Translations under genes and position numbers: made by a program
IMG/VR virus record: IMGVR_UViG_3300037248_000031
Location: 1 to 20,060 of that record
Length of the DNA: 20,060 nt
Strand: one strand, 5' to 3'
From: a virus
Notes under the pieces: model-generated
Databases searched by the model: none
The model's input: the letters and a program-made list of their open reading frames with translations, nothing else
Told to the model about the DNA's origin: nothing
Part shown: piece after piece, positions 11,091 through 19,508 of the stretch
Layout of the letters: each line of letters opens with the position of its first letter
How positions within the stretch are numbered: the first letter of the stretch is position 1

Positions 11091-11350
11091 ACGCCTTAGA
11101 GGTGGAACACAACCGTCTGTTGAGCGAGGGCCGAATCAGCCTGTCCCCGGACACCTGCGTGTTCTGCCATGACAAGCCCAAATCCGGCTATACGCATGTG
11201 GATCTGGTGCTGTCACTCAACCAATTTTCTCCTCCGCCCGCTGGGGCCGTTCGCGTGAGCGATAACCCTGGCGGCGATCCCAATCCACAAGTCCCTTCCT
11301 TCGATCACGACACGGAAGAGACCGGAGCCAACCATGCCAACAGGCAGTAA
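11087..11350 (+). CDS. small Cys-motif protein, 87 residues
   Basis: The ATG overlaps the previous stop (ATGA). Near residue 24 it has CVFCHDKPKSGYTHVDLVL, a Cys-x2-Cys with two His further on that could bind one metal. The second half is Pro/Gly/Asp-rich and probably unstructured. It overlaps the scaffold-like gene by 17 bases. The function is unknown; it belongs to the group of Cys-motif microproteins placed ahead of a larger assembly gene. Confidence 0.55.
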   Translation: MNALEVEHNRLLSEGRISLSPDTCVFCHDKPKSGYTHVDLVLSLNQFSPPPAGAVRVSDNPGGDPNPQVPSFDHDTEETGANHANRQ

Positions 11351-12455
11351 CCAGCAACTCGACGATTTCGATCTGCAGTCGTGGCTCGCCGACATTTCCG
11401 CCGACGGTTCCCTCTCGCAGGACGAAGTCAACAACCTGAAGTCGATCCTCGGTAAGGACAAAGTCACCACCCGCCTCAAAGATCAGGTTCTGATGCGCCG
11501 GGATTACTCGCGCAAGACACAGGAACTGGCCGATGGACGGCGGGCTCTCGAAGCCGATGTGAACTCGGTGCTCCAAGAGCGTCAGAACCTGGCAGAGTGG
11601 AAAAGTGGTCTCGACGATAAGTACAACAAAATCGCCGCGGATCTCGAAGCTGCTCGCATCACCGAAGGCCAGTACCGCGCTCGTATCTCCACACTCGCCC
11701 GGCAATACAACGCGGACGAGAAGGCGCTGCTCGAAGGGATCTCAACCCCCGAGGGTGGCAACAAAGGTGGAGACGGTGGAGCCCCCGCGAACAAAGGCGG
11801 AGGGAATGGCGATCAGTCGCAGTATCTCACCCGCGAAGATGTTAACAAGCTGGCCGCACAGCGCGACCGTCAGACACTCCGTCTGCTTGCTGAGTTCCCC
11901 GACATTGCGGAGGAACATCAGGAACTCTTCGGCAAGTCCCTTCGAACGTTCGAATACACCACCCCATCGGGCGAACAGCTCCGGGGCCGGTCGGCGTTCA
12001 TCCAGAAGGCGCTTGACACCAACGACCAACTGACCCGCCAAGGCAGGCCAGCCATGGACCTTCGCCGCATCTGGGAGACCACGTTCGACGTGCCCAAGAA
12101 GCGCGAAGAGATGCACACCGAGACTCTGCGCACGCAGATCCGGGGCGAGTTGGAAGGTGAGTACCGGCAGAAAGCCACGGAGGCTGCTCTGAACGGAGGC
12201 AATGCTCCAGGTCGGCCCGGACAGCAACGCGAGCACTCTCCCGTATTCGCCAAGGAGATGAAGACTCCTGCGGAGCGGGACGCGGAAGCTGCGGCGGGCA
12301 ACGGCAATGGACACGGGGACAACGGTAGACTGCCACCCCCGGCTGAATCCGCTGCCGGTCGCGAGAGTCGCTGGCAAAAGTCGGCATCGAGCTTCCTCGA
12401 TCGCCGCGCCCGTGGGATTCCCATGGGGCAGCCTGACGTGGCAAAGAGCGCTTAA
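11334..12455 (+). CDS. scaffold-like head assembly protein
   Basis: The product has 373 residues and is highly charged. Residues ~45-115 form a long coiled coil (for example RRALEADVNSVLQERQNL). A Gly/Asn/Lys-rich low-complexity hinge follows at ~140-160, then a second helical region, then a C-terminal disordered stretch (about 270-345) and a short basic end SSFLDRRARG. Helical, acidic, flexible proteins encoded directly upstream of the capsid gene are usually scaffolds that template the procapsid and bind capsid protein with a basic C-terminal helix. No protease motif is visible. The assignment is by position and composition rather than family match. Confidence 0.6.
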   Translation: MPTGSNQQLDDFDLQSWLADISADGSLSQDEVNNLKSILGKDKVTTRLKDQVLMRRDYSRKTQELADGRRALEADVNSVLQERQNLAEWKSGLDDKYNKIAADLEAARITEGQYRARISTLARQYNADEKALLEGISTPEGGNKGGDGGAPANKGGGNGDQSQYLTREDVNKLAAQRDRQTLRLLAEFPDIAEEHQELFGKSLRTFEYTTPSGEQLRGRSAFIQKALDTNDQLTRQGRPAMDLRRIWETTFDVPKKREEMHTETLRTQIRGELEGEYRQKATEAALNGGNAPGRPGQQREHSPVFAKEMKTPAERDAEAAAGNGNGHGDNGRLPPPAESAAGRESRWQKSASSFLDRRARGIPMGQPDVAKSA

Positions 12456-12460
12456 GGCGT

Positions 12461-13009
12461 ATGATGCCGCAAGTGCAAGGTTCACCAACTGAAGTCGATT
12501 GGGCGCGGTTAGCCGTTCTGATCGACGGAGAAGGGTACATCGGAATCGCCACTGCCTTTTCCAAGAAGCGGAAATGGGCGCGGCCTCACCTGTATCTGGA
12601 TGTGCGGATAACCAACACGGACCCGCGTGTCTCTGAATGGTGTGTGGCTCACTTCGGTGGTAGGGTGTACATGGGTAAGCGGCCTGCCAGTAAGAAGTGG
12701 AGCAACTGCTTCTATTGGACAGTTGCCTGTAATAAGGCTGAAGCCATATTGCGGGGATGCTTGCCGTACTTCATTGTGAAACGTGATCAAGCAGAGGTTG
12801 CACTGGCTTTCCAGGCGACGATTGATCGCGCGCGTAGCAATGGCGTCAAGGGAGTGCCCGTTGCAGATGTTCTGGAACAGGTACGTTTGCGAGACGCTCT
12901 CCGCGATTTGAAAGGCACCTCTTCCCGTCGAAACAAAGTGAACAAGGCACTCGACGAGTATCTCAGAGGAGTTGACGCTGTTGCTGAGAACCCTAAGCGA
13001 GCTAATTGA
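12461..13009 (+). CDS. LAGLIDADG-type homing endonuclease, free-standing
   Basis: The product has 182 residues. One LAGLIDADG motif is clear: LAVLIDGEGYIGI at 17-29, with E24 at the catalytic acidic position. Only one copy is present, so the enzyme probably works as a homodimer and cuts a palindrome-like site. The region after the motif (LDVRITNTDPRVSEWCVAHFGG) matches the usual alpha-beta core with the DNA-contacting strands. By eye, its codon use is less C/G-biased than the flanking scaffold and capsid genes, a sign of separate origin. It lies between scaffold and capsid, upstream of capsid exon 1, and not inside the group I intron. Its TGA overlaps the capsid TTG start. A second in-frame ATG is at 12464. 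Confidence 0.85.
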   Translation: MMPQVQGSPTEVDWARLAVLIDGEGYIGIATAFSKKRKWARPHLYLDVRITNTDPRVSEWCVAHFGGRVYMGKRPASKKWSNCFYWTVACNKAEAILRGCLPYFIVKRDQAEVALAFQATIDRARSNGVKGVPVADVLEQVRLRDALRDLKGTSSRRNKVNKALDEYLRGVDAVAENPKRAN

Positions 13010-14413
13010 TCGCAAGTTCTCCACGGCACGACTACAAATATCTGAGCGATCCGATCCTGGACGAGATTTGAAAAGAGTCCCGTGCATGCGAAAGTGTGCA
13101 TGTGAACCGCGTGAATTGCTGGGAAACCTAAAGCTGGTGGCAGCCAAGGCAATCAGCAGCCAAGCCTCAGCGATGAGGAAGGTTCAGAGGCCATCCTGAA
13201 AGGGAGTAGGGTCAAGCGACCCGAAGCGCGCGGCACCCGCTTATGAGGGTGATGATATGGTCCGAGCTTGGGGACGAAAGCCCCAGAAGGTCGGGAATAG
13301 CGAACCCGGTCGCAACACAACTGTAACCTCACAACGCTCAAGGAGATCTACCCGGACGCCGTCGAAGACAACTTCTTCCTCGATAGTCCATTCCTTGCGC
13401 ACTTGCGCAAGAAGGCGATGGTGCCCTTCACGGGCGGCGCCTTCATGCAGACCGTTTTCATTTACGCGCCTCTCATCGGTGGTGCGTACACGCGCGGCCA
13501 GAACTTCGATATCAACAAGCCGCAAACCCTATCGGGCACCGAGTTCGACCCGAAGTATTACGAGGTCTCGGTCGTCGAGTACAAGGAAGACATCCAGGTC
13601 CTCAACCGTGGCGACCTCTCGATCTTCCGCCTGATCGACATCGACATGCAGAATGGCATCCAAACCATCTCTGCGATCATCGCGGTCGATTTGCAGCAGA
13701 ACGGCCAGCTCGCCCCGCGAACCCCTAACATCAACGGGTGGACCGAGGCGATCAACGACGGGAACAACCCCTCGTGGGACGGCAACATCTACACGTCCTA
13801 CGGGACCCAGGCGCGCAACGGCAACATCGCCATCGCACTCAACGGCAACGTGTTCTGGGCAGGCGATCAGGCTGGCAACGTCGGCGCAATGACCTACCAA
13901 CTGCTGGAAGAGGCGTATCAGTCAGCCTCGATCGGGCGCGACGAACCCGACTTGGGCGTCGCGAACAAGGCCGCCTACGCTTACATCAAGGAGCGTATCC
14001 AGCCTCAACAGCGGTTCGCTCAAGAGCGCGACCCCTACTGGGGTGCCAACGGGATGCGCATGAACAACGCGCTGATCCTGAAGGACGACTACTTCCCGTC
14101 GCTCAAGTACGGTCAGAATCAGGCGGGGATCGGCAACTTCCTGACCTCGACCTTCGCCTACACCGCACCCGCGACCGTCGTGAACAACTTCCCCACGACC
14201 AACGTCACCCTGACCGTGGGCGAGGTGTTCGTGTGGTTCAACACGCGGAAATTCCTGCTTCGTCTCGCGGACGACCCGGAGTTCGGTCTGGGCTTCTCGG
14301 GCTTCGTTCCGGCGCAGGACAATACCCGCGTCGCTGGTCAGATCAAAGCTGCGATCAACCTGGAGTGCATTGCTCCCCGCTTGAACACGCAGATTTATGG
14401 GATCGGAGGTTGA
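13006..14413 (+). CDS. major capsid protein, split by a group I intron (exons 13006-13067 and 13324-14413)
   Basis: Spliced product: 383 residues. Exon 1 starts at TTG 13006, overlapping the endonuclease stop, and reads HDYKYLSDPILDEI before the splice site. Exon 2 continues NLTTLKEIYPDAVEDNFF. Joining after U13067 and G13323 keeps the frame and completes an Ile codon (AT+T). Without splicing, translation stops at TGA 13069. The product forms the capsid shell (HK97-type fold expected). The segment DNFFLDSPFLAHLRK then GGAFMQTVFIYAP resembles N-terminal regions of many phage capsid proteins; the rest is a mix of beta strands and helices of normal capsid length. TTG is the only possible start after the in-frame stop at 13003, and no good Shine-Dalgarno precedes it. 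ATG 13403 would lose 47 residues. Confidence 0.8.
13068..13323 (+). ncRNA. group IA self-splicing intron in the capsid gene, 256 nt, no ORF inside
   Basis: All core helices can be drawn. P1: exon 13061-13067 with 13077-13083, U67-G77 wobble at the splice site. P2: 13084-89/13094-99 with GAAA loop. P3: 13107-11/13229-33. P4: 13117-22/13153-58. P5: 13127-29/13147-49. P6a: 13165-68/13175-78. P7: 13189-94/13257-62. P7.1: 13195-97/13202-04, GAAA loop. P7.2: 13209-13/13218-22. P8: 13234-38/13247-51. P9: 13269-73/13281-85. P9.1: 13292-95/13305-08. The P/Q/R/S boxes resemble classical ones (for example AATTGCTGGG and GGTTCAGAGG). Extra P7.1/P7.2 stems are typical of subgroup IA. The terminal G is 13323. 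Exons join in frame. Confidence 0.85.
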
Positions 14414-17150: not shown

Positions 17151-17417
17151 ATGCTGGCTCTCGTTGAAGTGAACAATCAACAGATCGTCGAGTTGGCTAC
17201 ACCGATCGCAGTGATCATCTCCATCCTCCTTCAGCAGCGCGCGGCCAGTAAGGCGCAGGCAGCCGCAGTAGTCGCAGCGCAGAAGACCGACGAGATCCAC
17301 ACGATGGTGAACAACAATCTCACCGCAGCGCGCGCCGAAGTAGTTGCGCTCCAGAAGCAGGTCACCGACCTCTCCGTGCACATCGCGAAGATCACAGAAA
17401 AGGATGGGGGCGCTTGA
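17151..17417 (+). CDS. small membrane protein with coiled coil, holin-like
   Basis: The product has 88 residues. A TAGGAGAT Shine-Dalgarno lies about 6 bases before the ATG. Residues ~10-28 (QIVELATPIAVIISILL) form one membrane span, followed by a Gln/Ala-rich charged helix to the end (for example LQKQVTDLSVHIAKITEK). A single span plus cytoplasmic coiled coil is seen in some phage holins and holin-associated proteins. Its TGA overlaps a TTG that starts the next small gene. Its place in the run toward the endolysin supports a lysis role, but the family is uncertain. Confidence 0.5.
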   Translation: MLALVEVNNQQIVELATPIAVIISILLQQRAASKAQAAAVVAAQKTDEIHTMVNNNLTAARAEVVALQKQVTDLSVHIAKITEKDGGA

Positions 17418-17587
17418 TCCGTGCCGAAATATTAGCGAGTGTGCTGTTTTGGGCATACACACGCGATCAGCTATGCCTATCGTTGGAGCAGGAGAACCGC
17501 GAACTACGTCAAACAGTGGGAGATCTGCACGAAGAGATTGTCAGGCTCGTGCTTGCCCCTCTCGGGACATCGACGAAGGCCAACTGA
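17414..17587 (+). CDS. 57-residue spanin-like or coiled-coil membrane protein
   Basis: TTG at 17414 overlaps the previous stop. The product has a short hydrophobic N-terminus (IRAEILASVLFWAYT) followed by a coiled coil (SLEQENRELRQTVGDLHEE). This is the layout of an inner-membrane spanin (Rz-like) in miniature. The next gene, which starts immediately after the stop, has a secretion signal, so the pair might act as inner and outer spanin; the second lacks an obvious lipobox, which weakens this. Confidence is limited by length and the TTG start. Confidence 0.45.
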   Translation: MIRAEILASVLFWAYTRDQLCLSLEQENRELRQTVGDLHEEIVRLVLAPLGTSTKAN

Positions 17588-17863
17588 ATGCAGCGTCTTC
17601 CACTCCTCATCGTGATCGCACTGGCCGCCGTGGCCCAGAAACCTGCGCGCATGGAGATAGACCCCGTGGCCGATCTCAACGGGAGATTCGTGTGGGGGCT
17701 GCAGCGCCCTGACCAAACCAAAGCCTGCACGGTCGAGAAGGAGATCATCGTGTACCCGGTCGCGCACATTTCGGTGCCTGGAGCGGTCATCGATGACCTC
17801 GACCTTCATGCTAAGATCTGCGTATCAGGGCACTGGCGAACTGTGAAACTCGGAGTAGAGTAG
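17588..17863 (+). CDS. small exported protein, 91 residues
   Basis: The ATG follows the previous stop directly. MQRLPLLIVIALAAVAQ is a secretion signal with cleavage likely after Ala16 or Gln17. The mature part (~74 residues) has two Cys (KACTV and KICVS), which may form a disulfide, and is beta-rich (EIIVYPVAHISVPG). No lipobox is clear. It could be an outer-membrane or periplasmic lysis factor, or another envelope protein. The family is not recognised. Confidence 0.55.
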   Translation: MQRLPLLIVIALAAVAQKPARMEIDPVADLNGRFVWGLQRPDQTKACTVEKEIIVYPVAHISVPGAVIDDLDLHAKICVSGHWRTVKLGVE

Positions 17864-17871
17864 GAGGCACT

Positions 17872-18042
17872 ATGACGCTATCGATTCTGTTCTGGATACT
17901 GATGATCCTTTGGGTGATCGTGTACTGGGGCGGAGAGTTCAACCCCACACAGCCGTATTACAGGCGCGGCGCAGGCATCCTGATATTCGTCCTGCTGGTG
18001 ATTCTGGGCTGGGCGGTGTTCGGCGGGCCTGTCAGGGGCTGA
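17872..18042 (+). CDS. two-span membrane protein, holin candidate
   Basis: The product has 56 residues. AGGAGG lies 4 bases before the ATG. There are two membrane segments, ILFWILMILWVIVYW at ~5-19 and ILIFVLLVILGWAVF at ~36-50, joined by a polar Arg/Tyr/Pro loop. Two-span small proteins (class II) are frequent among phage holins, which trigger lysis by making membrane holes. The location just upstream of the endolysin-like gene supports this. No family match can be made by eye. Confidence 0.5.
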   Translation: MTLSILFWILMILWVIVYWGGEFNPTQPYYRRGAGILIFVLLVILGWAVFGGPVRG

Positions 18043-18058
18043 CGGAAAGGAGGGCGAA

Positions 18059-18133
18059 ATGGACCCGATCACTGTTTGCATCGTGATCTACACGATCTGG
18101 ACGATCGCGCTCGTTGTGTCGCCGAAGAAGTAG
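18059..18133 (+). CDS. 24-residue membrane peptide
   Basis: ATG at 18059 follows GGAAAGGAGG with 5-base spacing, a near-ideal ribosome site. The peptide is one membrane helix (ITVCIVIYTIWTIALVV) ended by PKK, which orients the tail to the cytoplasm. It is too short for family assignment. The strong ribosome site argues that it is translated. A regulator of the neighbouring holin candidate is possible. Confidence 0.5.
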   Translation: MDPITVCIVIYTIWTIALVVSPKK

Positions 18134-18143
18134 AGGATTAATC

Positions 18144-18825: not shown

Positions 18826-19091
18826 TCAACACGCCGTTCGAGTCGTGCGAAGGTGTCGTCGCGAAGACTCCATCGATCAAGGGAGTCAACGGTACGTACA
18901 GTGGCAACCGTCCTCCATTCGACAAACCTCACTCGAAGGGCAAGGACACGATCCCGGTCAAGTTCTTCTCAGGCGAGGGCGACAAGATCGGCCCACTCTC
19001 ACCGGACCCCGAAGCGTTTCAATCCCCGCATGGCAACACACTAACCATTGGGGGCGCCGTAGACCGTAAGAGCCGCAAGTCGGGCGATTAG
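18810..19091 (+). CDS. hypothetical small protein, 93 residues
   Basis: ATG at 18810 has GAAAGGAG about 7 bases upstream. An in-frame GTG at 18762 would add 16 residues but lacks a ribosome site. The protein is polar, Gly/Ser/Pro/Lys-rich and probably flexible (KGVNGTYSGNRPPFDKPHSK), with a short beta-type segment DTIPVKFFSG. No family is recognised. A minor virion or accessory role is possible. Confidence 0.55.
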   Translation: MGKAMINTPFESCEGVVAKTPSIKGVNGTYSGNRPPFDKPHSKGKDTIPVKFFSGEGDKIGPLSPDPEAFQSPHGNTLTIGGAVDRKSRKSGD

Positions 19092-19105
19092 TCGCGGGCC
19101 GACTG

Positions 19106-19321
19106 ATGCTGCGCCGTTGGGTAAATAAGTGCCGCAATTGTGGAGCTGTGCGTGAGTACCCAAGTGGGCGACACATCACGACATGTCCTCGATGTGGAAG
19201 CATGGATATAGAGTACACACCGGCTCCGAGAACGCAGGCGCAGCGCGAGCGCCTGATACTAGAAGCTATCAAAGGAAACGAGGCTGATGATGAGTTTCGG
19301 GCAAGCACTAGAAGCCGTTAA
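19106..19321 (+). CDS. zinc-ribbon microprotein, 71 residues
   Basis: The protein contains CRNCGAVREYPSG and, 15 residues on, CPRCGSMDIEY, a complete four-Cys zinc ribbon at residues ~9-33. A charged helix follows (TQAQRERLILEAIKG). The gene lies directly before, and overlaps by 35 bases, the Tad2-like gene. It could bind DNA, RNA or protein. It is the cleanest zinc ribbon of the window. Confidence 0.65.
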   Translation: MLRRWVNKCRNCGAVREYPSGRHITTCPRCGSMDIEYTPAPRTQAQRERLILEAIKGNEADDEFRASTRSR

Positions 19322-19508
19322 GAATGGTAAGACGGCACAGCGTGTGGGTTGGAACGGCAAAGGCATGTGGATTGCGCTTCAGAAGCCCGACGCACAGTCC
19401 AAAATAGGTGTGCCGTACCTGTACATGAAGGGCGTCGATGGGAAGCTGTTTCCGTGGAATCCCAACAATCTGGATATGCTCGCAGAAGACTGGCAGATAG
19501 TGAGCTGA
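19287..19508 (+). CDS. DUF2829 / Tad2-like anti-defence protein
   Basis: The product has 73 residues. MSFGQALEAVKNGKTAQRVGWNGKGMW, PYLYMKGVDGKLFPW and DMLAEDWQIV are the three signature parts of DUF2829. Members of this family include Tad2, which binds cyclic nucleotide signals made by Thoeris (and some CBASS) defences and so keeps the effector inactive. The full short domain is present with no truncation. Two ATG codons (19287 and 19290) are possible. The neighbours are small accessory genes between lysis and tail genes. Family membership is confident; activity on any particular signal is not shown. Confidence 0.8.
   Translation: MMSFGQALEAVKNGKTAQRVGWNGKGMWIALQKPDAQSKIGVPYLYMKGVDGKLFPWNPNNLDMLAEDWQIVS

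Follow-up and report, generated by a model that had tools for sequence, protein, structure and literature searches.

How a mobile intron comes by its endonuclease is a long-standing question, and it is raised by the major capsid locus of the DNA described here, IMG/VR record IMGVR_UViG_3300037248_000031, positions 1 to 20,060 (20,060 nt in full, referred to as the window). In this locus, an ORF-less group I intron (13068-13323) lies beside a free-standing endonuclease gene (12461-13009), which is the anatomy for collaborative homing. This process has been inferred from a handful of cases with endonucleases of other families. It has been documented for psbA/F-CphI of cyanophage S-PM2 (PMC6083498), reported for T3 and T7-like phages, suggested at terL of ICP1 on the basis of the same intron/endonuclease arrangement (PMC10448857), and reviewed (PMC3984707). 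The question is whether the two elements at the capsid locus act together or are merely neighbours.

A reading of the sequence alone had placed a group I intron at 13068-13323, and the Rfam covariance model RF00028 (Intron_gpI) bears this out. The model matches the window at 13058-13286 on the + strand over its full length (1-253), with 64.1 bits, above the curated gathering cut-off of 50 bits, and an E-value of 1.9e-14 calculated over the window. Both group I hallmarks are present: the conserved splice-site U falls on 13067 in the cmscan alignment and forms the P1 wobble pair with G13077, and the last base of the 256-nt intron is the omega-G, 13323. No endonuclease ORF occurs within these 256 nt, in agreement with the earlier statement that the endonuclease lies outside of the intron. 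The capsid frame that is read from TTG 13006 runs into TGA at 13069-13071, and joining U13067 to U13324 gives, as had been predicted, a single open frame through DEI^NLTTLKEIYP. This is the only nearby pair of positions that combines a U before the intron, a terminal G and the exon length of relatives. The intron interrupts the gene at codon 9 (in the numbering of relatives), between a 5' exon at 13006-13067 (+) and a 3' exon at 13324-14413 (+), the latter encoding a phrog_9953 major head protein.

The core is complete. On the + strand, P1 pairs 13062-13069 with 13075-13082 (span 13062-13082; cmscan alignment and sequence), with a single mismatch, A13064/C13080, and is followed by the P2 hairpin with a GAAA loop (13083-13100). 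P3 (13107-13113 with 13227-13233, span 13107-13233) encloses P4 (13116-13121/13154-13159), P5 (13127-13129/13147-13149), P6 (13160-13161/13181-13182) and P6a (13165-13168/13175-13178). The G-binding helix P7 pairs 13189-13193 with 13258-13262 (element span 13189-13262), and the subgroup IA markers P7.1 (13194-13205) and P7.2 (13209-13222), P8 (13234-13251) and the P9 hairpin with a GAAA loop (13270-13284; cmscan alignment) complete the set. On inspection, a possible P9.0 joins A13265-G13266 with C13321-U13322, and no convincing P10 pairing was found in the sequence. The intron is compact, with short peripheral loops, and P3, P4, P5, P5a, P6, P6a, P7, P7.1, P7.2 and P8 contain no non-standard pair in the window.

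Comparison of 15 viral intron cores points in the same direction. In this alignment, 87% of cells are paired, and 110 double changes are found against a mean of 39 in shuffles, a level reached by none of 500 shuffles; sliding the partner columns by one to three lowers pairing to 28-43%. P3 is paired in 100% of cells, with double changes at five of its seven pairs, and P7 is likewise paired in 100% of cells, with double changes. The earlier assignment to subgroup IA is right, because P7.1 and P7.2 are present between P7 and P3 and compensatory change in the core helices is strong. The minimum-energy fold is modestly lower than that of shuffles (z -2.6), as expected, since a pseudoknotted core cannot be represented in such a fold.

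The relatives of the capsid protein provide the third line of evidence. There are 18 close viral relatives (46-97% identity), and an alignment scan returned 30 loci together with a further one from a Bryobacterales MAG. In all of the relatives found (about 30 contigs), the capsid gene is uninterrupted at the intron site; in the closest ones the DEI^NLTTLKEIYP junction is matched exactly and contiguously, and one relative without the intron has a 97% identical capsid protein. The spliced gene is collinear with that of L001, a phage with neither intron nor endonuclease whose scaffold and capsid DNA is about 88-90% identical to the window: both measure 1116 nt from the LSDPILDEI codon, with 101 mismatches and no gap. 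The site lies in a conserved segment, DPxxDE(I/L)xxTT, with invariant D3, P4, E8 and T13. A search of the records of the 18 closest relatives gave no group I intron, including elsewhere in the capsid genes. Only one genome with the intron is known in this capsid family. Together, the covariance model, the covariation and the intron-less relatives support the interpretation of 13068-13323 as a group IA intron that lacks an ORF, is apparently self-splicing and has U13067^U13324 as its exon junction. Taken alone, this intron is a further member of an already known class.

Raised exon divergence beside the intron was considered as a mark of co-conversion and rejected: the 10 nt that follow the site contain three changes, but all relatives vary at synonymous positions there. 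Two other segments of the window appear to be insertions or replacements as well, namely 17399-18143, with a counterpart of only about 350 nt in L001, and 19088-19504, with none. The relative on the Bryobacterales MAG contig (L099) and Tunturiibacter phages (L020, 31% identity) suggest Acidobacteriota hosts.

The start of the capsid gene shows what the endonuclease gene has displaced. The head scaffold gene occupies 11334-12455 (+); homology with L001 ends with its stop codon and starts again at 13325. The window lacks the 72-nt leader that separates scaffold from capsid, and the endonuclease gene stands in its place, its TGA overlapping TTG 13006 (TTGA). The proposed TTG start is indeed the sole ATG, GTG or TTG in the capsid frame, but relatives start 12 codons later, with TTG, GTG or ATG where the window has CTG 13042. 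Their proteins begin at [M/V/L]-[S/A/P]-DPILDEI, with homology from [S/A]DPILDEI, and in L001 and L002 a ribosome-binding-site-like sequence precedes the start. Nothing in relatives corresponds to the N-terminal residues IASSPRHDYKY, so that HDYKY, to which the earlier reading pointed, is not conserved. Translation from TTG 13006, coupled to that of the endonuclease, would add 12 residues; the alternative would be initiation at CTG. A hairpin in the leader that would conceal the start of the capsid gene in L001 and L002 was also considered, and it proved no better than in shuffles.

The neighbouring endonuclease, on which the earlier reading touched just briefly, tells more about the locus than the intron does. 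The ORF at 12461-13009 (+) encodes 182 aa with the motif LAVLIDGEG and belongs to the single-motif LAGLIDADG enzymes of I-CreI/I-MsoI type. A profile built from it and its phage relatives retrieves I-MsoI, I-CvuI and I-CreI from PDB sequences (best E-value 2.4e-14, to I-MsoI), and its AlphaFold model (pLDDT 80) has I-MsoI and I-CreI as top Foldseek matches (E-value 5.5e-9, TM-scores 0.65-0.78). The name of its PHROGs family, 'HNH endonuclease', is ruled out by these profile and structure searches. The Pfam models LAGLIDADG_1 and LAGLIDADG_3 match the relatives only, not the window's own protein. While the fold is shared with I-CreI, I-MsoI and I-CvuI, identity in the structural alignment is 17-18%, and the genes of those enzymes reside inside organellar rRNA introns, whereas the window's enzyme is encoded by a free-standing phage gene.

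Single-protein scans revealed no close copies of this endonuclease besides L094 itself, and an alignment scan, which returned 80 loci, was required. Six of the seven best relatives (L101, L102, L103, L094=L104, L105 and L107) are located in head-gene modules. In L101, L094 and L107 (45%, 39% and 35% identity), the gene occupies the slot between scaffold and capsid that it has in the window, and the capsid gene is continuous across the intron site; the L101 scaffold is 62% identical to that of the window, and its contig stops about 14 nt beyond the site. In L102 and L105, the endonuclease is directly downstream of the capsid gene. Such a position on either side of the capsid gene would be expected of a family with its target in that gene. 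The idea that endonuclease divergence tracks capsid divergence fails for L102 and L105. Of the four possible states, three are seen at the capsid locus: genomes with neither element, genomes with the endonuclease alone and a genome with the two together; the intron alone was seen in none of the capsid-family relatives. The simplest order of arrival would be the endonuclease first and the intron later, with secondary loss as an alternative.

The explanation that we consider best, and hold to be probable, is that a free-standing endonuclease of the capsid locus now collaborates with a later-arrived intron, through predicted cleavage and splicing. The group IA intron at codon 9 would splice itself out of the late mRNA, allowing capsid protein to be made normally, and the endonuclease for its homing would be supplied by the adjacent LAGLIDADG gene. 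Having replaced the capsid leader, this enzyme would most likely cleave capsid alleles that lack the intron, close to the 5' end of the gene, during co-infection, and double-strand-break repair would copy endonuclease and intron together. In its own genome, the intron would destroy the cut site.

Collaborative homing is supported by the head-gene modules in which all but one of the seven best relatives of the endonuclease are located, and by L001, which lacks both elements. It is weakened by the lack of a clear P10 and by the single intron-bearing genome in the capsid family. Moreover, the joined exons contain no good pseudo-palindrome at the intron site, although LAGLIDADG enzymes with a single motif would be expected to work as dimers; the comparison is uninformative as to whether the enzyme cuts there. 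In L101, L094 and L107, immunity does not require the intron, since the endonuclease is kept there without it, and in consequence the target could be at another place in the capsid gene or close to it. The palindrome that scored best, TTGCGCACTTGCGCAA, 79 bp downstream of the intron site, is intact in the window and is not an obvious target. A near-perfect palindrome, CTTGCGCA-CT-TGCGCAAG, is present in the capsid coding sequence at 13390-13415 and also in L001.

It is possible, though we find it rather unlikely, that intron and endonuclease are neighbours with no link between them. In that case the endonuclease would home alone into the scaffold-capsid slot (intronless homing, with its target at any point of the capsid region), and the intron would have come separately, not specifically mobilised by it. 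The three genomes with endonuclease and no intron, and the two with the endonuclease downstream of the capsid gene, fit such a history, whereas the sole genome with an intron has both elements, about 60 bp apart, and its close relative L001 has neither. The absence of a palindrome at the intron site also agrees with it, as does the ability of free-standing phage endonucleases to cleave at a distance of hundreds to thousands of bp from their own gene (PMC2988022); however, any cut at the capsid 5' end would bring the intron along by co-conversion anyway.

Very unlikely is a remnant of a mobile intron that once encoded its own endonuclease and lost it, the neighbouring gene being a replacement. 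Such endonuclease turnover has been proposed for loci of this kind (PMC10448857), and on inspection endonuclease-like ORFs sometimes adjoin or interrupt the introns that share this core in capsid genes of other phages (L039, L052, L055), but the compact 256-nt intron, with its short loops, retains no ORF remnant. That the insertion is decayed or chimeric, with capsid made from a downstream start, is scarcely credible even for a metagenomic contig known by its sequence only, given the complete core, unbroken P3-P8 pairs, compensatory changes and exact exon junction, and downstream starts would drop the conserved N-terminal segment.

Returning to collaborative homing, the closest known arrangements differ in their enzymes. 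In S-PM2, a group I intron likewise lies beside a free-standing endonuclease gene, but F-CphI is of Endo VII type (DHHRN), with proven cleavage, and the host gene is psbA, while the window has a putative LAGLIDADG nuclease and a capsid gene (PMC6083498). At ICP1 terL, a head/packaging gene is likewise split and has the endonuclease next to its first exon, but the enzyme is of GIY-YIG type (T5orf172) and the gene encodes a terminase (PMC10448857). The literature searched, which covered few subscription journals, contains no earlier LAGLIDADG-based collaborative homing. With about even confidence, we propose a clade of free-standing I-CreI-like endonucleases specialised on the phage capsid locus and joined in one genome by a group IA intron at their own target site, that is, a LAGLIDADG collaborative-homing pair whose endonuclease-first intermediate is preserved in relatives. 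The intron and endonuclease, seen beside endonuclease-only relatives, form a new variation on this arrangement that lends itself well to testing: one phage family displays neither, endonuclease-only and both states at a single site, and the predicted cut site in one short conserved capsid segment makes the idea directly testable.

The supposed rarity of a capsid intron did not hold up. A pattern built from the window's intron core retrieved 40 IMG/VR loci, a redundant set that is not an estimate of frequency; 32 of them hold a capsid gene related to one of nine representative downstream exons, all nine of which are PHROG major head proteins, and in most the intron abuts the exon. Capsid genes are plainly a recurrent home of this core among the loci compared, which suggests that in uncultured phages they commonly house introns of group IA; misannotation of split capsid genes is probably frequent. 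The IA introns of L032, L042, L045, L060 and L061 share the core and have capsid host genes, but differ from the window in capsid family and insertion site. The closest introns (L042, L032, L060, L061; 72-78% over 84-159 nt) sit in other capsid families, which suggests that introns move between capsid loci. A published example is mycobacteriophage LittleE, whose major capsid gene carries a probable group I intron with an associated LAGLIDADG gene, and for which splicing was established by RT-PCR and N-terminal sequencing; its intron is about 819 bp, with the LAGLIDADG frame inside on the bottom strand, unlike the ORF-less intron and outside endonuclease of the window (PMC3706429). Tuc2009 is cited there as another.

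Several further arrangements were observed. In L042 (4218-6893), the capsid gene between scaffold and C-terminal exon is seemingly split by several group I introns, and the 13.9-kb contig (G019) has four RF00028 matches. L052, L039 and L057 (G037, G038 and G039) have up to seven matches per contig, and the stretches between these contain capsid exons and endonuclease-like ORFs. In L045 (at 955), as well as L031, L041, L044, L047, L053 and L064, an IA intron lies at the very start of capsid genes of another family, phrog_247, with a tiny 5' exon and a position similar to that of the window's intron. Finally, in Gordonia phages a LAGLIDADG-like frame runs antisense in MuF-type minor capsid genes (L023, 2001-2393; L028, 1501-1914).
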